From: Pyrobaculum neutrophilum V24Sta
Lineage (GTDB): Archaea > Thermoproteota > Thermoprotei > Thermoproteales > Thermoproteaceae
Length of the DNA: 64,000 nucleotides
Reading direction: 5' to 3'
Assembly (NCBI RefSeq): GCF_000019805.1
Contig: NC_010525.1
Span: forward strand, 992,001 to 1,056,000
Shown: positions 24,502 through 46,623 of the stretch, piece by piece
Layout: each line of letters opens with the position of its first letter
How positions within the stretch are numbered: position 1 is the first letter of the stretch
Notes under the pieces: model-generated
What the model was told of the DNA's origin: nothing
What the model saw: the letters and a program-made list of their open reading frames with translations, nothing else
The model's database searches: none
Position numbers and translations under genes: made by a program

Positions 24502-25302
24502 ATGAGGATAGTCGCCGTCAGAGCCAGGGCGGGGTCGGCCTTCGCCGTTTCGGGCTTCTCCGGCACCGTCGTGGAGTCCCTCGTCCTCAAGACCCTGGGC
24601 AGGCCCGACCTACACGACGCCAGGGTGAAGCCCTTCTCCGTGTGGCCCCTCCTACACAGGGGGAGGCCGGTCCTCTGGGGAGCCGCCGTGGCCCCCGGAG
24701 ACCCCGTCGAGGTGAGGGTGGGCTTCGCCGACGACGACATGGCCAGCCAGTTCGCCGCGGCCGCCGCCGGCGGCGGCCTGCAGCTCTTCGGCGCCAGGCT
24801 AGACCCCGAGGCCGTGGAGATGCGCGACGCCCACCACGACCTCCCCCAGGAGCAGTGCTTCAAGCTGGAGTTCCTCAGCCCCCTGAGGTTCGCCACCCCG
24901 CCCCTCTACAGGAGGAGCAAACCCATCTACGAGTTCTTCCCCCGCCCCCTCTCCCTCTTCAAATCCGCCGTAAAACACGGCAGAGCCCTAGGCGTCACCA
25001 AGCTAGGCGCCCCCTTCCTCCGCTGGGTCTACACCTACGTCGCCCTCACCGACTTCGGCTGCCACAGCCGCTGCGTAGCAACGGTAAAGCTCCCCGGCGG
25101 CGGAATAGCAAGAGGATTCCTCGGCTGGGCCCTATACCGCGCCTACGGAAAGAGAAGAATCACAGACCTCTGGAAAACCATAAGACTAATGGAAACCCTC
25201 AACGTAGGCACAGGACGATCCATGGGCCTCGGAGCCGTCAAAGCAACCCCCCTAAAATGCCCCAACCAACAACCCACAGAAAAACCTACATACCCTATAT
25301 AG
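24502..25302 (+). CDS. cas6: Cas6 CRISPR RNA endonuclease
   Basis: 266 residues. The C-terminal glycine-rich loop NVGTGRSMGLGAVKATPL is the Cas6 signature, and FLSPLRFATPPLYRR with the central HHD and H/R residues fits the double ferredoxin fold. Cas6 cuts the precursor transcript within repeats to release crRNAs for both effector complexes. It is the only Cas6 seen here, although four arrays and two repeat families are present. The stop codon abuts leader 2, and the last roughly 50 nt of the gene recur beside leader 3. The 3' end is C/A-rich. Confidence 0.85.
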   Translation: MRIVAVRARAGSAFAVSGFSGTVVESLVLKTLGRPDLHDARVKPFSVWPLLHRGRPVLWGAAVAPGDPVEVRVGFADDDMASQFAAAAAGGGLQLFGARLDPEAVEMRDAHHDLPQEQCFKLEFLSPLRFATPPLYRRSKPIYEFFPRPLSLFKSAVKHGRALGVTKLGAPFLRWVYTYVALTDFGCHSRCVATVKLPGGGIARGFLGWALYRAYGKRRITDLWKTIRLMETLNVGTGRSMGLGAVKATPLKCPNQQPTEKPTYPI

Positions 25303-25597
25303 ATCACGGCGTTTATAAATCGTCGTGCAACAAGCCCTTTCTTTTTGTAAAATCGTTCTACTCCTCCGCCGTTGTACCTTTGTCAAGCGGAGATCCAGTT
25401 TAAAAAACGGCGGGCAGAACAACGGCGGACGGCGCCGCCGACCTCCAGCCACACGCTTTCAACTGCGGGACGCACGGGGTTAGCTCTAGAAAAACCAACA
25501 ACCCAGAAAGAGCAGTCTCAAGAACACGCCGAAATCAACACAAAACCCACCAGAGAAAAACTTAAAAACCAACAAAAACCAAAACCCAGAAACCCCA
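25303..25597 (+). promoter_or_regulatory. CRISPR leader 2
   Basis: About 295 nt, nearly identical to leaders 3 and 4. It opens with CTATATAGATCACGGCG, then GTTTATAAAT (25311-25320), and ends CAGAAACCCCAGAATC at the first repeat. The array-proximal box ACTTAAAAAC (25560-25569) is centred about 33 nt before array 2 and is the likely array promoter. Type-2 markers used to compare leaders are GATCAC near the far end and TCAAGCGGAGATCC in the middle. Confidence 0.9.
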
Positions 25598-27142
25598 GAA
25601 TCTCAAGTTGAGGATTGAAAGGGAGATGGCGATACTGCGGGCGTTCTGGGGGGCATGCTGAGAATCTCAAGTTGAGGATTGAAAGCAGCGCCTCCACGGT
25701 GTACGAGCTGGGCAGAGTGAGGGTGGTGGAATCTCAAGTTGAGGATTGAAAGCAACTCCTAAACCACCCCGTTTTTTCTCTCCTTAAGACGTGAATCTCA
25801 AGTTGAGGATTGAAAGCGTCAACTTGATCCATTGTACACTCACGCCCGAAACAGACATTGGAATCTCAAGTTGAGGATTGAAAGCTTTGGCGCGACAGAG
25901 TGGGTTCTGGCGTGACAGTTCCTTGGAATCTCAAGTTGAGGATTGAAAGATATTCCGGGCCCAGGGCATCTACGGTGCCCGGTGGGTAGGCTAGAATCTC
26001 AAGTTGAGGATTGAAAGGTTTCGAGTGCCATTCACTGTACGGCTCGAGCTCATATATTTTCGAATCTCAAGTTGAGGATTGAAAGGTTTCGAGTGCCATT
26101 CACTGTACGGCTCGAGCTCATATATTTTCGAATCTCAAGTTGAGGATTGAAAGTGAACTCGCCTACCTTGACGTAGCAGGTGTTCCACACCACCAGGTGA
26201 ATCTCAAGTTGAGGATTGAAAGGGTCATCCCCGTCCACGACGCGTAACCTCCCCATTTTTGAATCTCAAGTTGAGGATTGAAAGTCGATAGCTTTCTCAG
26301 CCGTAGCGGTGTCCATCATGGCGACGAATCTCAAGTTGAGGATTGAAAGGGCGGCGGTCTCTGCAACTGTTGCTGTGGCTTAGGCGGAGGTGAATCTCAA
26401 GTTGAGGATTGAAAGTGTCTAGATAGCGCTGTATCATCATGGCCTTGGGATAGTAGAGAATCTCAAGTTGAGGATTGAAAGCAGCGAGTGTGGCGGCAGG
26501 CAGACGCCCAACAGCTCCTCACTCTGAATCTCAAGTTGAGGATTGAAAGACTCTCTACTCCTACGTACACATCATCGCCTACACGTCTCAGAATCTCAAG
26601 TTGAGGATTGAAAGTCACTTGACGTCCCTACCGCCATACTCACTTCACGGTTGTAGAATCTCAAGTTGAGGATTGAAAGCTACTGCCTCGTAGACGTGGA
26701 GGAGGGAAGGGCCGTGTGCGGAATCTCAAGTTGAGGATTGAAAGAATGGGTTGCGACAGCCACCGAAGCTACCGTGCCACATCGACTCGAATCTCAAGTT
26801 GAGGATTGAAAGTATGCAATCTGCTCAGCCAAACTAACGTCGTCCAGCCTCGTAATGGAATCTCAAGTTGAGGATTGAAAGCGGCCGGCGACGGCGACGG
26901 TGAGGTCGCAGGCGCAGTTGCGGGGAATCTCAAGTTGAGGATTGAAAGGCGGTGACAGGCGAGTAGTTGTATGCGACGTCTAGGGCATCATGAATCTCAA
27001 GTTGAGGATTGAAAGAGCTGTTGTTGCTGTAGCTGTCTCATTACCTCCTCGCGAATCTCAAATTGAGGATTGAAAGCACAGCTGTGTACTCGGCGAGCGC
27101 CATGTCGACGAGCTACTGGAATCTCAAGTTGAGGATTGAAAG
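25598..27142 (+). CRISPR. CRISPR array 2, 24 repeats, 24-nt repeat
   Basis: Repeats run GAATCTCAAGTTGAGG then ATTGAAAG. Starts are at 25598, 25662, 25729, 25793, 25861, 25926, 25994, 26062, 26130, 26199, 26261, 26326, 26392, 26458, 26526, 26591, 26656, 26721, 26789, 26858, 26925, 26992, 27053 and 27119, giving 23 spacers. The copy at 27053 has AAATTGAGG, a decay near the leader-distal end. Two adjacent spacers (26018 and 26086) are identical. The array points towards the type I-A genes. Confidence 0.98.
26018..26129 (+). repeat. Tandem duplication of one spacer-repeat unit in array 2
   Basis: The 44-nt spacer starting GTTTCGAGTGCCATTCACTG occurs at 26018-26061 and again at 26086-26129 with one repeat between, so 112 nt comprise spacer, repeat, spacer. 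Unequal crossover or replication slippage explains it better than two identical acquisitions. Confidence 0.95.
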
Positions 27143-35891: not shown

Positions 35892-36728
35892 GTGTTGACA
35901 CTCCTGGAGATCGCCCGCCTACTGAGGAGGGCCAAGGTCACCCAGGGCCCCGCCGAGGTTTCGCCGGAGCTGAGGGGCTGGGCCTACGACAGGCAGCCGG
36001 TCAAGCCCCCCGCCTACCTCGGCCTCGCCCTCTCCGACTTCGCCTACGGCTACTGCCCCACTGGGAGGAGCCTTTACCTCAAGTACGTGCTGGGGGAGAG
36101 GCCCCAGCCCACCAAGCCCCTCGCCGAGGGGCAGGCCCTACACGCCGTCCTCTTCAAGGCGCTGGAGGACTTCAGGAGGTACGTCTACTCGGGCACCCCC
36201 ATGTCCCCCCCGGGCGAGGGCATGCCGGAGGACCTCAGAGCTAAGGCCGAGGCGCTGTATAGATACATCGCCGTTAGGCTCACCGGCGAGTACCAGCACG
36301 TCCTGGCCTCCCGCCTGGCCAGAAGCCGCGACGCCGCCGCCTTCTACGCCGCCCCCATAGCCGCCCAGATAGCCGTAGACGGCGCCCCCCTCGGCCTCAG
36401 CTACGTCGTGGCGGACGGCGTGGCGCTGGGGGCCGTGGTGGAGTTCAAGTTCGGCCCCAGCCAGAACGTCGACGTAGCGCTGGCCGGCTACGCCATGGCC
36501 ATAGAGGCGGAGTACGGCGTCCCCATAGACTACGGCATACACGTCCAGATATCTATAGACGGGCAGGTGGAGTACAGAGCCACCGCCTACCACCTCGGCG
36601 ACGCCCCCCGCGCCAAGTTCCTCGAGGCCAGAGACGAGGCCATCGACGTCGTCGCCTCCGCCAGAGACCCAGGCCCCGCCCCCCAGTGCCCCAAGACTTG
36701 CCCCTACTACAGCGTATGCAGGTCGTAG
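35892..36728 (+). CDS. csa1: Csa1 (Cas4-like adaptation nuclease)
   Basis: 278 residues from a GTG at 35892. It contains YGYCPTGRSLYLKYVLGE, the RecB-type LAEGQALHAVLFKALEDF, VVEFKFGPSQNVDVALAGYA (E-F-K and Tyr), and the C-terminal cysteines CPKTCPYYSVC. These mark a Cas4-family Fe-S nuclease of the Csa1 type. It works with Cas1, Cas2 and Cas4 in making and orienting spacer precursors. It diverges from csa3 and overlaps cas1 by 13 nt. Confidence 0.85.
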   Translation: MLTLLEIARLLRRAKVTQGPAEVSPELRGWAYDRQPVKPPAYLGLALSDFAYGYCPTGRSLYLKYVLGERPQPTKPLAEGQALHAVLFKALEDFRRYVYSGTPMSPPGEGMPEDLRAKAEALYRYIAVRLTGEYQHVLASRLARSRDAAAFYAAPIAAQIAVDGAPLGLSYVVADGVALGAVVEFKFGPSQNVDVALAGYAMAIEAEYGVPIDYGIHVQISIDGQVEYRATAYHLGDAPRAKFLEARDEAIDVVASARDPGPAPQCPKTCPYYSVCRS

Positions 36729-37600
36729 TGGCCGCATACGGCGCCAGGATAAGGGCTAGGAAGGGCCTCCTCCTCGTGGAGACAAAGGAGGGCGCCAGGG
36801 AGTACCCCCTACACGAGGTAGACGAGGTCCTCCTACTCACCGGCGGCATATCCATAACGACGAGGGCGCTCAGGGCCCTCCTCGCCGCCGGGGCCACAGT
36901 CGCCGTCTTCAGCCCCCGCGGGGAGCCCCTGGGCATATTCATGAAGCCCATCGGAGACGCCACGGGGGCCAAGAGGAGGTGCCAGTACAAGGCGGCGGAG
37001 GACGGCAGAGGGCTACAGTACGCCAAGAGCTGGGTCTTCAAGAAGATGCTGGGCCAGAGAGACAACATCAAGGCCTGGCGCCGCCGCCTAAGAGGCTACA
37101 GCCAATACGCCGAGTCCCTAGCCAAGGCCCTACAGGCGCTGAGAGACGCCGCCTCCCCCCACGCTGTCTTGGAGGCCGAGGCGGCGGCCGCCGAGGCCTA
37201 CTGGGCCGCCTACAGGGAGGTCACGGGGTTCCCCGGCAGAGACCAGGAGGGGAGAGACCCCGTCAACGCCGGCCTAAACTACGGCTACGGGATCTTGAAG
37301 GCCCTGGTCTACAAATCCCTGATCCTCGCCGGGCTGGACCCATACGTCGGCTTCCTCCACGTAGACAAATCCGGGAGGCCCTCCCTAGCGCTGGACTTCA
37401 TGGAGCAGTGGAGGCCCCGCGTCGACGCCGTCGTGGCCAAGATGGCGGACAAGCTGGAGTCCGAGGGCGGCCTACTCACCCGCCGGTCCCGCCTGGAGCT
37501 GGCCGCCGCCGTCCTGGAGGAGCTCCACGCCGCCAAGAGGCCCCTCTCCGCCGAGATCCACAGAGAGGCCAGAGCTCTGGCGCGCTCCATATGTACATAA
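36716..37600 (+). CDS. cas1: Cas1 integrase
   Basis: 294 residues from the ATG at 36716. The metal-binding residues are recognisable: Glu in EAEAAAAEAYW, His in YVGFLHVDKSGRPSLALDF (H of GFLH) and Asp of the same stretch (ALDF). Cas1 integrates new spacers at the leader-repeat junction. In T. tenax, as I recall, Cas1 and Cas2 are fused; here they are separate genes overlapping by 10 nt. Confidence 0.95.
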   Translation: MQVVVAAYGARIRARKGLLLVETKEGAREYPLHEVDEVLLLTGGISITTRALRALLAAGATVAVFSPRGEPLGIFMKPIGDATGAKRRCQYKAAEDGRGLQYAKSWVFKKMLGQRDNIKAWRRRLRGYSQYAESLAKALQALRDAASPHAVLEAEAAAAEAYWAAYREVTGFPGRDQEGRDPVNAGLNYGYGILKALVYKSLILAGLDPYVGFLHVDKSGRPSLALDFMEQWRPRVDAVVAKMADKLESEGGLLTRRSRLELAAAVLEELHAAKRPLSAEIHREARALARSICT

Positions 37601-37863
37601 TAGTGGTGTACGACATAACGGAAAACGACGTCAGAGCCAAGGTGGCCGACATCCTAAGGGCCTACGGCCTAGCCCGCATCCAGCGCTCCGCCTACGTCGG
37701 CAGGCTCCCGCCGGCCCTCGTCAAGGAGCTCGCCGAGAGGCTCGCCAGAGCCGTAAAGGGGGCAAACGCCGACATAGCCATATTCAAGGTAGACAAGAGG
37801 GCCATAGAGACCGCACTGAGGATACCCCCCAGGCCCCCCGCGGGACATGCAGCCCTGCATTAA
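37591..37863 (+). CDS. cas2: Cas2
   Basis: 90 residues beginning MYIIVVYDITENDVRAKVAD, the standard Cas2 first strand with the conserved Asp after VVYD, then RIQRSAYVGRL. The length is normal. It is the structural partner of Cas1 in spacer integration. Both flanking genes overlap it, cas1 by 10 nt and cas4 by 17 nt. Confidence 0.95.
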   Translation: MYIIVVYDITENDVRAKVADILRAYGLARIQRSAYVGRLPPALVKELAERLARAVKGANADIAIFKVDKRAIETALRIPPRPPAGHAALH

Positions 37864-38419
37864 CCCAAGCCTAATACGGCAGTACCTCTACTGCCCCATG
37901 GCCGCCTACTACACCGCCACAGGCGCCCCGGAGCCCCCCACCCTCAGGATGCAGAAGGGCAGAGAGCTCCAGCAGGAGGCCGCACAAGCCGCCGCCAAGG
38001 CCCTAGGCGCCCAGAAGGCCGAATACGCCGTCCACATAGCCGCCCCGCCCCTCTGCGGCACGGTAGACGCCGTCCTCTGGATCAACGGAAGGCCAAGCCC
38101 CCTCGAGGTGAAGGCCGCGGCGAGGCCCCGCCGCATCCCCATACACCACAAGGCACAAGCCGCCGCCTACACCGCCATGGTGCAGAAACGATACGGAAAA
38201 GCCGTCACCACAGCCTACATATACTACGCCGAGAGCGGCCACATAGCCCACATCCACATCACCAAAGACCTACAAGAGCTGTTGAACTACGCCGTCTCGA
38301 GACTACAGCAGATACTCCAGGGAAAGCCGCCGGTCCTAAACCCAAATCCGGCGAAATGCCAAAACTGCTGGTACAGAAAATGGTGCAGCCACCTGCCAAC
38401 AACAGTGGAAAAAATCTAG
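37847..38419 (+). CDS. cas4: Cas4 Fe-S nuclease
   Basis: 190 residues. PSLIRQYLYCPMAAYY has the first cysteine; CGTVDAVLW and PLEVKAAARPRR hold the catalytic Asp and E-V-K; HKAQAAAYTAMVQKRYGK has the Q and Y; and CQNCWYRKWC closes the 4Fe-4S site. It trims spacer precursors and helps PAM selection. Last gene of the adaptation operon; its 3' end is C/A-rich and about 140 nt from array 3. Confidence 0.93.
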   Translation: MQPCINPSLIRQYLYCPMAAYYTATGAPEPPTLRMQKGRELQQEAAQAAAKALGAQKAEYAVHIAAPPLCGTVDAVLWINGRPSPLEVKAAARPRRIPIHHKAQAAAYTAMVQKRYGKAVTTAYIYYAESGHIAHIHITKDLQELLNYAVSRLQQILQGKPPVLNPNPAKCQNCWYRKWCSHLPTTVEKI

Positions 38420-38558: not shown

Positions 38559-40170
38559 CTTTCAATCCTCTCTTTGAGATTCGCTAGTCGTGTACGCCAG
38601 GGCGCGCAACTGCACCGTGGTGCTTTCAATCCTCTCTTTGAGATTCCGGCGATGGATATGTCTATGTCAACGGCGTTAGGAGGGCTACTTTCAATCCTCT
38701 CTTTGAGATTCATCCGTACTACTGGCAGAAGAACGCGTATGCGTTTGAGACTTTCAATCCTCTCTTTGAGATTCACAGGGGCTTCTCTGCGCCCAGCTCA
38801 AGGGGAGTCTTCTTTCAATCCTCTCTTTGAGATTCGCGTCGATGTCTGTATATGCATATATTTGTGCTGTAATACACTTTCAATCCTCTCTTTGAGATTC
38901 GTATGGCCGCCCCGCCAGCACTGATCCTGCCGCCCCCAGGCTCCTTTCAATCCTCTCTTTGAGATTCGGCTCATGAGGAGTGCGTAGAGCGTGCCAAGAC
39001 GTGCTACATTACTTTCAATCCTCTCTTTGAGATTCGTGGATGGGGCCCTTAACAATTATTGCCCGATCTAGGTTGGTCACTTTCAATCCTCTCTTTGAGA
39101 TTCTTACTGCAGAGGGCCAGCCAGGCCTACAGAACATACATCCGCCGTCTTTCAATCCTCTCTTTGAGATTCGGCCCTACTAATAGCCGGGGCCCTGGCG
39201 GCATCTGGCGCCGGGGCCCTTTCAATCCTCTCTTTGAGATTCAGGGAGCTTGCGCAGTTGGTTGACAAGCTCGAGAATCTGAGACGTCCTTTCAATCCTC
39301 TCTTTGAGATTCAGATGGCGATAGTATAGTCGTGAAGCAGTTGCCAGACTTTCAATCCTCTCTTTGAGATTCCGGCATCTGCCACTGTATCAACCACCCC
39401 ACTATCAAGTATACAGACCTTTCAATCCTCTCTTTGAGATTCTACTATCACGCTCCACGCGATTCGTGGTTCTGGTATCCGTCTTTCAATCCTCTCTTTG
39501 AGATTCAGCATGGTAGCGACAGCGCCAAGGTGGTGATGGAGACGTACGACTTTCAATCCTCTCTTTGAGATTCGCGTGGCTAACAGTAAGATTAGCGACT
39601 GGATTCACTTTTTTGCCTTTCAATCCTCTCTTTGAGATTCTGAGGATGATCTGATTTGGGTTGGCGAGAAGTTCGGTCTGAAGCTTTCAATCCTCTCTTT
39701 GAGATTCCGCACCGGCGTCGGCAACAAGTCGCTCCTGGTGAGGAGGGCCCTCGCTTTCAATCCTCTCTTTGAGATTCGACGAACTACTACGGGCTTAGGG
39801 CCGCAGATGCGGTGGTACTGCCTTTCAATCCTCTCTTTGAGATTCGTTAGCGAGGAGGAGGTGGAGGACGAACTCTACGAGATTGTCTTTCAATCCTCTC
39901 TTTGAGATTCGGACGGGGCCGGCCGTGGCGTGGATACGGGTGTGGTCTGCTTTCAATCCTCTCTTTGAGATTCGTCGTTAGTGTCTATGACCGCAGTGGT
40001 ACCGCTGTGTTGCAAGTGCTTTCAATCCTCTCTTTGAGATTCCGATGTCCACCAACACAATGTCGTCGTCATCAACCGCCACCTTTCAATCCTCTCTTTG
40101 AGATTCACATTTAAAGCCGTAGTTGCTGTAGGACAGGCGGGGGAGACTTTCAATCCTCTCTTTGAGATTC
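38559..40170 (-). CRISPR. CRISPR array 3, 25 repeats, 24-nt repeat
   Basis: On the plus strand repeats begin CTTTCAATCC and end TCTTTGAGATTC; in the transcribed direction (minus) they read GAATCTCAAAGAGAGG then ATTGAAAG. Starts are at 38559, 38623, 38688, 38751, 38812, 38877, 38944, 39012, 39080, 39149, 39219, 39289, 39349, 39419, 39483, 39550, 39617, 39684, 39754, 39822, 39887, 39950, 40019, 40083 and 40147, giving 24 spacers. The leader is on the right. The repeat differs from array 2 at the central GAG/TTG positions only. Its distal end faces cas4. Confidence 0.98.
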
Positions 40171-40475
40171 TGGGCCTTCTGGGTTTTGGTTTTTGGTGGT
40201 TTTTAAGTTTTTCTCTGGTGGGTTTTGTGTTGATTTCGGGGTGTTCTTGTGATAGCTCTTTCTGGGTTGTTGGTTTTTCTAGAGCTGGCCTTGTGCGTCC
40301 CGTAGTTGAAAGCGTGTGGCTGGAGGTCGGCGGCGCCGTCCGCCGTTGTTCTGCCCGCCGTTTTTTAAACTGGATCACCGCTTTACAAAGGTACAACGGC
40401 GGAGGAGTAGAACGATTTTACAAAAAGAAAGGGCTTGCTGCACGACGATTTATAAACGCCGCTGTCTATATAGGG
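40171..40475 (-). promoter_or_regulatory. CRISPR leader 3 (inverted copy)
   Basis: Reverse complement of the leader 2/4 type. On the minus strand it begins CTATATAGACAGCGGCG, then GTTTATAAAT (40448-40457), and ends AACCCAGAAGGCCCAGAATC. ACTTAAAAAC precedes the first repeat by about 30 nt. Homology with the leader 2 region continues about 50 nt past the leader into sequence matching the 3' end of cas6 (ACCTACATACCCTATATAG). Type-3 markers are GACAGC at the far end and GTAAAGCGGTGATCC. Confidence 0.9.
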
Positions 40476-40526
40476 TATGTAGGTTGTGTCTGTGGGTTGT
40501 TTTTATATGGGGGTTTGGTTTGTGTT

Positions 40527-43640
<3,114 letters not shown>

Positions 43641-43683
43641 ACCACCACACAAAGAACAATTAATAAAGCCTAAACATAAATAT

Positions 43684-43987
43684 TCTATATAGATCACGGC
43701 GTTTATAAATCGTCGTGCAACGTGCCCTTTCTTTTTGTAAAATCGTTCTACTCCTCCGCCGTTGTACCTTTGTAAAGCGGTGATCCAGTTTAAAAAACGG
43801 CGGGCAGAACAACGGCGGACGGCGCCGCCGACCTCCAGCCACACGCTTTCAACTACGGGACGCACAAGGCCAGCTCTAGAAAAACCAACAACCCAGAAAG
43901 AGCTATCACAAGAACACCCCGAAATCAACACAAAACCCACCAGAGAAAAACTTAAAAACCACCAAAAACCAAAACCCAGAAGGCCCA
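43684..43987 (+). promoter_or_regulatory. CRISPR leader 4 (hybrid)
   Basis: Same about 300-nt leader family. The far part is leader-2 type (GATCACGGCG at 43693-43702, GTGCAAC up to 43721). From 43774 (GTAAAGCGGTGATCC) to the first repeat it is leader-3 type, including ACTACGGGACGCACAAGGCC and CAGAAGGCCCAGAATC. ACTTAAAAAC lies at about 43950-43959. Divergent from the herA promoter. Confidence 0.9.
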
Positions 43988-46486
43988 GAATCTCAAAGAG
44001 AGGATTGAAAGTTGTCTCTGTCGCTTGCGCCGTCTCACGCCGTCTTCCCCCCTGAATCTCAAAGAGAGGATTGAAAGCTCACCGTAGAGAGGCCGGCGTG
44101 GTGGGGGGCGCCGGCGCTGGAATCTCAAAGAGAGGATTGAAAGCTGTCCTCTGCACGGCGCCCTCGAACTTAACGCCGTCTTTCCGAATCTCAAGTTGAG
44201 GATTGAAAGGTAGCATGCTGTCTCAGTTGCTGGCTGAACTGAGTGGCATCTAGCACGAATCTCAAGTTGAGGATTGAAAGAGAGTCTCGTACGACACTCT
44301 CCTCCCGCAGAGGTCGCACCTGAATCTCAAGTTGAGGATTGAAAGAGAGTCTCGTACGACACTCTCCTCCCGCAGAGGTCGCACCTGAATCTCAAGTTGA
44401 GGATTGAAAGCGGAAAGTTCTGTCGCACTGTCTGTTGGAAGTAGTCCAACCCACCGAATCTCAAGTTGAGGATTGAAAGTCGATTCCATCCGTTATGAGC
44501 GCTATGACGGCGTTGCGACGCGAATCTCAAGTTGAGGATTGAAAGCTGTACAGATATCTCGAGTAAGGAATGGGTGTTAGTTCGACTGAATCTCAAGTTG
44601 AGGATTGAAAGCAACGAAGGCGACCAGGTCACCGTTGTGGTGCGCAACGTGAAGTGAATCTCAAGTTGAGGATTGAAAGGTCTTCTCTTGGATCTGCTTG
44701 GCGAGCGCGTCCACAGCTGCGCGGAATCTCAAGTTGAGGATTGAAAGTCGTGAAGAAGAAGAGCGCAGGAGACGTGAGGAAGAGGAGAATCTCAAGTTGA
44801 GGATTGAAAGATAAACCAAGTGGCGGCGTTCTGCGTAACCGGCGTCCAGTTGATCGAATCTCAAGTTGAGGATTGAAAGCAACAGGTCACGTCCTTCCTT
44901 GCCGGCCTCACTGACCCCTTCGGAATCTCAAGTTGAGGATTGAAAGCGAGGACAGCTCTAACGCTACTCGCTGATTCAGAGTAATTAAGAATCTCAAGTT
45001 GAGGATTGAAAGATTAAGTTCGCGTATCTGCTGAATGAGTACAGGCGCAGACTGAATCTCAAGTTGAGGATTGAAAGTGTATCTGGTACGGCCACCTGGT
45101 GTAGTCCACGCCGCAGAGGAATCTCAAGTTGAGGATTGAAAGCGAGTAGATCTCCAGCGTCGTGGATGTCTTCGCGTGGCCGAGCCAGTGAATCTCAAGT
45201 TGAGGATTGAAAGTCTCTATCCTTTTGTCGAAGTCTTCGTTGCGATAGTACTGGGAATCTCAAGTTGAGGATTGAAAGGCTGTACGACGCCGGCGCAGAA
45301 CTCCAGGGTGTGGACGATGGCGGAATCTCAAGTTGAGGATTGAAAGCAGTACCGTGTCGTATAGTGGATGCAGAGCTTGACGGCCCTTACTGAATCTCAA
45401 GTTGAGGATTGAAAGCGGGGGCATCCCGTCCCCCGAGAACGAGTATCTGATTAGGAGCCGAATCTCAAGTTGAGGATTGAAAGGGGTGCCCAACGGACGT
45501 AGTCCCTAGTCTCTGTGTAACTTCCGAATCTCAAGTTGAGGATTGAAAGTTTCGATCCCTGCATCATGACAAATGCGTCCCGCAATTCATCAGAATCTCA
45601 AGTTGAGGATTGAAAGGAGATCCAGCAAATCATCTGCATATTCTCGCGTAGAGCGCTGAATCTCAAGTTGAGGATTGAAAGCTCCATCGGGATTGGCCTC
45701 CCACCTATAAAATCTAGAGGAGAACTGAATCTCAAGTTGAGGATTGAAAGCTCTTATCAACGCTTTTTCAAGTATACTATTGTGCTCTGTGAATCTCAAG
45801 TTGAGGATTGAAAGCACACTTCAGCGCCAGCTTCAGCCCCTTATACACCACGACGTCGTGGGGGCGGAATCTCAAGTTGAGGATTGAAAGCGGCACTTCC
45901 ATGTTCATGTACGACCTTCTCCACGCCTCTCTGAATCTCAAGTTGAGGATTGAAAGTGCGACACAATTCCGCGCTTCTTCGGCGCCGCCGCCGAGGAGCC
46001 GAATCTCAAGTTGAGGATTGAAAGACGTTAAAATACAATACATCGCCGCCTCTCACGGCGACGATGAATCTCAAGTTGAGGATTGAAAGTATGAGCAGGA
46101 CTGGTGGAGGAGGGCGTTGGCGAACTCCGTGAATCTCAAGTTGAGGATTGAAAGCACCCGGCGTGAACTTCAGCGTCGTGCCAACGCCGACCGGATGTGA
46201 ATCTCAAGTTGAGGATTGAAAGGTCATTCGACACCGCCGCATTCAAGATGGCAGTTGACAGGAGGAATCTCAAGTTGAGGATTGAAAGTTTACCATACCG
46301 CTTATGTGGTGCATAGAAGTTCTAAGCGATGAATCTCAAGTTGAGGATTGAAAGGAGTGACGGAATGCACTGCGGCCGGCGGCACATGTGTTGCTGAATC
46401 TCAAGTTGAGGATTGAAAGTTGACCTTAAGGCCCGTAAAGAATATGCTGAACAAATATGCAATGAATCTCAAAAGAGGATTGAAAG
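43988..46486 (+). CRISPR. CRISPR array 4, 38 repeats, two repeat types
   Basis: The first three repeats (43988, 44054, 44120) are array-3 type (CTCAAAGAGAGGATTG). The next 34, from 44186 to 46396, are array-2 type (CTCAAGTTGAGGATTG). The last, 46464-46486, is a degenerate 23-mer with CTCAAAAGAGGATTG. There are 37 spacers of about 38-45 nt. Neighbouring spacers at 44281 and 44346 are identical. The distal end lies against a truncated ATPase gene. Confidence 0.98.
44281..44386 (+). repeat. Tandem duplication of one spacer-repeat unit in array 4
   Basis: The 41-nt spacer starting AGAGTCTCGTACGACACTCT is present at 44281-44321 and 44346-44386, separated by one repeat. Confidence 0.95.
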
Positions 46487-46623
46487 CAGTGGTTCAACCA
46501 GCCGCGGTTCTTGCCGGAGAGGTTGGGGCCTATCAGCGCCACGGCGCCCTTCGCCTCTATCTCTATATCGAGAGCGAGATCCACGTTTCCATACTTCAGC
46601 GTGCCGCCTAGATAGACTTTCAT
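46487..46623 (-). pseudogene. N-terminal stub of an ATPase cut by array 4
   Basis: From the ATG at 46623: MKVYLGGTLKYGNVDLALDI and AVALIGPNLSGKN. This aligns with the start of the intact ATPase at 48113 (LKVILKSDGLTYGDTKLKVD, ATALIGPNMAGKS). The gene breaks a few residues after the P-loop, where the last CRISPR repeat begins, and the P-loop Ser is already Asn. The rest of the gene is absent. It is a relic of a second copy of the ATPase that formerly extended into the array region. Confidence 0.75.

Follow-up and report, generated by a model that had tools for sequence, protein, structure and literature searches.

A mosaic leader and a repeat-type switch in a type I-A CRISPR array of Pyrobaculum neutrophilum, probably produced by gene conversion of the leader and first repeat

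The window, a 64,000-nucleotide stretch of the genome of the hot-spring archaeon Pyrobaculum neutrophilum V24Sta (positions 992001 to 1056000 of 1,769,823 bp, one contig), contains CRISPR arrays 2, 3 and 4 (Table 1), which correspond by their coordinates to crispr8, crispr9 and crispr10 of Bernick et al. 2012 (PMC3396285). Arrays 3 and 4 point outward, back to back, from an intervening block that is named nurA-csm6-herA (Tneu_1143-1145) in that paper. The 24-nt repeats (GAATCTC-core-GAGGATTGAAAG) and the spacers of ~35 to 54 nt are those of repeat family I, type I-A arrays, and the leaders carry the promoter-like box AACTTAAAAAC, as in Pyrobaculum type I-A arrays of this repeat family. The adaptation genes cas1, cas2 and cas4 are nearby (36686-38419), and the signature gene cas8a2 is given as Tneu_1132 in PMC3396285. 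According to the coordinates of Bernick et al. 2012 (PMC3396285), crispr5 (856227) and crispr6 (883097) are both located beyond the window.

Table 1. Features of the array 2 to array 4 region, in window positions.
Feature	Position	Strand	Remark
Leader 2	25283..25597	+	comparison
Array 2	25598..27142	+	24 repeats, GTTG core (one ATTG)
Array 3	38559..40170	-	25 repeats, AGAG core in 25/25
Leader 3	40171..40485	-	putative donor, inverted relative to leader 4
Block between inverted leaders 3 and 4	40486..43672	.	3.2 kb; HerA-like ATPase detected, minus strand
Leader 4, distal part	43673..43723	+	apparently unconverted
Interval with upstream end of putative conversion tract	43721..43773	+	
Leader 4, proximal part	43774..43987	+	
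Array 4	43988..46487	+	3 AGAG-core and 34 GTTG-core repeats, degenerate terminal repeat
AGAG-core (array-3-type) repeats of array 4	43988..44143	+	three, at 43988, 44054 and 44120
Array 4 spacer 1	44012..44053	+	putative gain after conversion
Array 4 spacer 2	44078..44119	+	putative gain after conversion
GTTG-core repeats of array 4	44186..46419	+	34, starts 44186 to 46396; read as body predating conversion
Array 4 terminal repeat	46464..46486	+	GAATCTCAAAAGAGGATTGAAAG, 23 nt, degenerate, A-rich core

Array 4 changes its repeat type close to the leader, and the repeat positions confirm a preliminary description in which the first three repeats were of the array-3 type and the next 34, from 44186 on, of the array-2 type. 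Leaders 3 and 4 together form a 340-nt inverted repeat that is 97% complementary. Base-by-base alignment of the leaders, the check proposed in that description, revealed a clean switch: all 10 differences between leaders 3 and 4 fall within 43676-43723, i.e., in the distal 51 of 339 nt (hypergeometric p=2.6e-9), and there is not one mismatch in the 288 nt from 43724 to 44011, which run through the first repeat. Leaders 2 and 5 (the latter from the array at 856 kb discussed below) both differ from leaders 3 and 4 inside 43724-44011; leader 2 does so at 17 positions of leader 4 within 43774-43999 (14 belong to the proximal leader, 3 to the repeat), so that the identity of leaders 3 and 4 there does not reflect a general constraint. 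The leader-3 character claimed from 43774 to the first repeat holds throughout, since leader 4 agrees with leader 3 and not with leader 2 at every two-state site in 43774-43999 at which leaders 2 to 5 divide two against two.

At the far end, leader 4 matches leader 2 and not leader 3 at 43694-43696 and 43720. The leader-2 markers described there are real in that GATCAC and GCAAC are shared, but only these four bases are diagnostic; the diagnostic A of the GTGCAAC marker, which had been followed up to 43721, is at 43720. Further, at least six bases are private to leader 4 (43676, 43679, 43683, 43684, 43722 and 43723), which argues that leader 4 has a far end of its own and did not take it from leader 2. 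Leaders 2, 3 and 4 have no distinguishing marker in 43724-43773, and the upstream switch, originally put at about 43722-43773, is placed within 43721-43773. The proximal markers outnumber and outweigh the far ones (four bases in two places), as the triplet in GATCAC (43694-43696) is fast-evolving across leaders.

A fourth close leader, leader 5 (genome positions 855913-856250), heads the array at 856 kb (crispr5; position 856227, L061), which reads, from newest to oldest, GTTG (11 repeats), AAAG (two), AGAG, AAAG, AGAG (two), an AGAG variant and a GTTG-like terminal repeat. This array is an independent replicate whose switch, from old AGAG/AAAG to new GTTG, is opposite to that of array 4. Leader 5 is leader-3-like at the far markers and leader-2-like at the proximal two-against-two markers, and its proximal part departs from leader 2 at eight sites. 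Terminal repeats aside, the far part of the leader tracks the old repeats in four of four arrays (GTTG with leaders 2 and 4, AGAG/AAAG with leaders 3 and 5), and the proximal part tracks the newest repeats, again in all four (GTTG with leaders 2 and 5, AGAG with leaders 3 and 4). Leaders 2 to 5 have 17 two-state sites with a two-against-two division, four far and thirteen proximal (three of the latter in the repeat); all four far sites pair leader 2 with 4 and leader 3 with 5, all thirteen proximal sites pair leader 3 with 4 and leader 2 with 5, and the third pairing is found at none of the 17. This perfect far/proximal separation has a permutation p=0.0008, or 0.044 with neighbouring sites merged, the latter value marking the far side as the weaker half of the evidence. 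With base polarity set by leader 6 and two other species, derived proximal bases are common to leaders 2 and 5 (e.g., 43774, 43867 and 43905) and to leaders 3 and 4 (e.g., 43781), and a derived G at 43720 is common to leaders 3 and 5. Two conversions in opposite directions would explain the linkage across the four arrays.

We consider it probable that array 4 received its proximal leader and first repeat from array 3 by ectopic gene conversion without crossover, and that this was mirrored at 856 kb. In the order of events that we infer from the mosaic, array 4 would at first have possessed its own leader and GTTG repeats. Homologous recombination of the non-crossover kind with the inverted leader 3, 3.2 kb away, would have copied ~226 to 288 nt, comprising the proximal leader with the repeat that adjoins it, into array 4 (minimum tract 43774-43999, 226 nt; maximum 43724-44011) and left its far leader and all older repeats unaltered. 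As spacer integration duplicates the leader-adjacent repeat, each later acquisition would have carried the AGAG core, and the three AGAG repeats imply at least two acquisitions after the conversion. The presumed copy direction, from array 3 to array 4, follows from the AGAG type of array 3 throughout and the GTTG type of the old part of array 4. At 856 kb, a similar event in the reverse direction would have occurred earlier, given the at least 10 acquisitions since then and the eight proximal differences from leader 2.

The hallmarks of ectopic conversion are seen at array 4: there are 0 differences from the paralogous donor over 288 nt, the recipient flanks (far leader and 34 older repeats) keep their own identity, and the donor is unchanged (a non-reciprocal transfer), with array 3 entirely AGAG and the far end of leader 3 unlike that of leader 4. 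The preliminary account, in which leader and first repeat were converted from the inverted leader 3 and two spacers were gained thereafter, is thus supported as the most economical one by the mirror-image array, by the far ends, which are not swapped, and by the restriction of spacers 1 and 2 to array 4 among the type I arrays. Among relatives in the genus and family (one genome per species, the nearest leaders ~70% identical), we found no strain with an unconverted allele.

An alternative is that an array-3 allele, in another cell or in the same genome before it lost spacers 1 and 2, supplied the leader, three repeats and two spacers in one step, so that these spacers were not gained at array 4. 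Such a block transfer would give an identical leader and repeat pattern, and recombination between CRISPR loci is described in Sulfolobus (PMC4390879), but we regard it as unlikely: neither array 3 nor any other type I array of the genome contains spacer 1 or 2, and this reading needs one more donor or one more loss. Moreover, no spacer is common to any two of the genome's five type I arrays, which have tandem duplications only, and this argues against the transfer of repeat-spacer blocks. A search of phage records gave no protospacers for array 4, and no exact match to the core of spacer 1 or 2 turned up in viral contigs.

The second possibility raised by Bernick et al. 2012, in which adaptation takes the leader-proximal repeat from a different array and leaves the leader untouched, is very improbable here. 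That paper (PMC3396285) proposes it for the 856-kb array, and it suits P. oguniense crispr1, in which repeats alternate without a leader co-switch; in array 4, however, the entire proximal leader switched together with the repeat, and the 856-kb proximal leader also pairs with the new repeat type. Even less probable is that the inverted leaders 3 and 4 crossed over and flipped the nurA-csm6-herA block. Their long inverted repeat (97%, 3.2 kb apart) would lend itself to such an event, but a crossover would swap the far ends and not move the proximal leader or the repeats off their array; the observed far ends go with the old repeat types, and it is the proximal end that changed. We rejected an inversion or crossover of leaders 3 and 4 since the far ends are unswapped. 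Chance convergence, selection or an assembly artefact, for which we found no supporting point, is the least credible, given three adjacent repeat substitutions and ten leader sites all of the leader-3 type, the variability of the same stretch in leaders 2 and 5, and a genome in one contig.

Bernick et al. 2012 (PMC3396285) reported mixed repeats in two arrays only, crispr5 of P. neutrophilum and crispr1 of P. oguniense, and left homologous recombination and copying of the leader-proximal repeat open as causes. Their mixed arrays are like array 4 in the clustering of repeat types within one array, and crispr5 belongs to the same genome; we found neither mixing in crispr10 (array 4) named nor a leader comparison in the available part of that paper. 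The paper also proposes gene conversion or purifying selection for the invariant CRISPR promoter, the former likewise between leaders, but its available part offered us no tract or example, whereas for array 4 a tract with mapped limits is accompanied by a linked repeat switch. The exchange described in Sulfolobus (PMC4390879) is likewise between arrays of one cell; there, however, spacer-repeat units move, as inferred via repeats, whereas in array 4 leader and first repeat would have been overwritten and no spacers are shared. The literature that we searched, which was outside subscription, yielded no report of a conversion tract comprising leader plus repeat.

If array 4 was indeed overwritten by conversion, the event would have changed the repeat sequence of every virus memory added later, and the array would be evidence from natural sequence that the repeat next to the leader serves as template for new ones. 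Recombination is then favored over repeat copying as the cause of mixing in this genome, a question open since 2012. The switch would also set a relative time mark inside the array, dividing spacers gained before the recombination from those gained after it, and would illustrate a route by which several arrays in one cell stay alike.

Judging from the sequences compared, leader conversion has support at array 4 and at 856 kb but cannot be generalized to all mixed arrays. The repeat type of P. oguniense crispr1 (L079, 937975-938897) switches at least three times in 14 units, and the leader retains its own bases beside the first repeat without a matching switch, so another route is needed there, e.g., repeat-only conversion or repeat copying. 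A further mixed array (G010, L074:9765-11106), located at a contig end, has 4 older AAAGA-core repeats and 17 newer AAGAA-core repeats, and the stretches of G010 examined contained no second array of the newer type. Among the type III arrays of the P. neutrophilum genome, repeats vary only by single bases or in the terminal unit, and none of these arrays switches type. Twenty type I leaders of the genus, placed in a tree, group by species, with one mixed cluster (near relatives G003 and G009). Two leaders of G006, at 216870 and 228506 (L069), are separated by 11.6 kb and share 99% identity over 333 nt; 3 of their 4 differences are at the far end. The grouping by species and the G006 pair suggest concerted evolution; recent array duplication would look similar. 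Array positions beside the nurA cluster recur across species (PMC3396285). We tentatively propose, as possible rather than probable, that conversion of leader and first repeat is recurrent in Pyrobaculum, keeping the type I leaders of a cell alike through concerted evolution and resetting the repeat type that is written. If true, like leaders would stay serviceable by shared adaptation genes.

Several minor features of these arrays were also observed. One repeat-spacer unit of array 4 is exactly duplicated in tandem (44257-44386, spacers 5 and 6), and spacers 7 and 8 of array 2 are near-identical, likewise a tandem duplication. The terminal repeat of array 4 has a core like the AAAAA/AAAGA types, beneath 34 GTTG repeats, and that of the 856-kb array is GTTG-like, beneath AGAG/AAAG repeats; these opposite-type terminal repeats may record still older switches. 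Finally, the array at genome positions 883097-885730 (L062:4100-6720) has a rather different repeat, GATTCTCAGATAGAGATTTGAAGG, and a leader ~80% identical to leaders 2 to 5, and its first two repeats end in T, not G.
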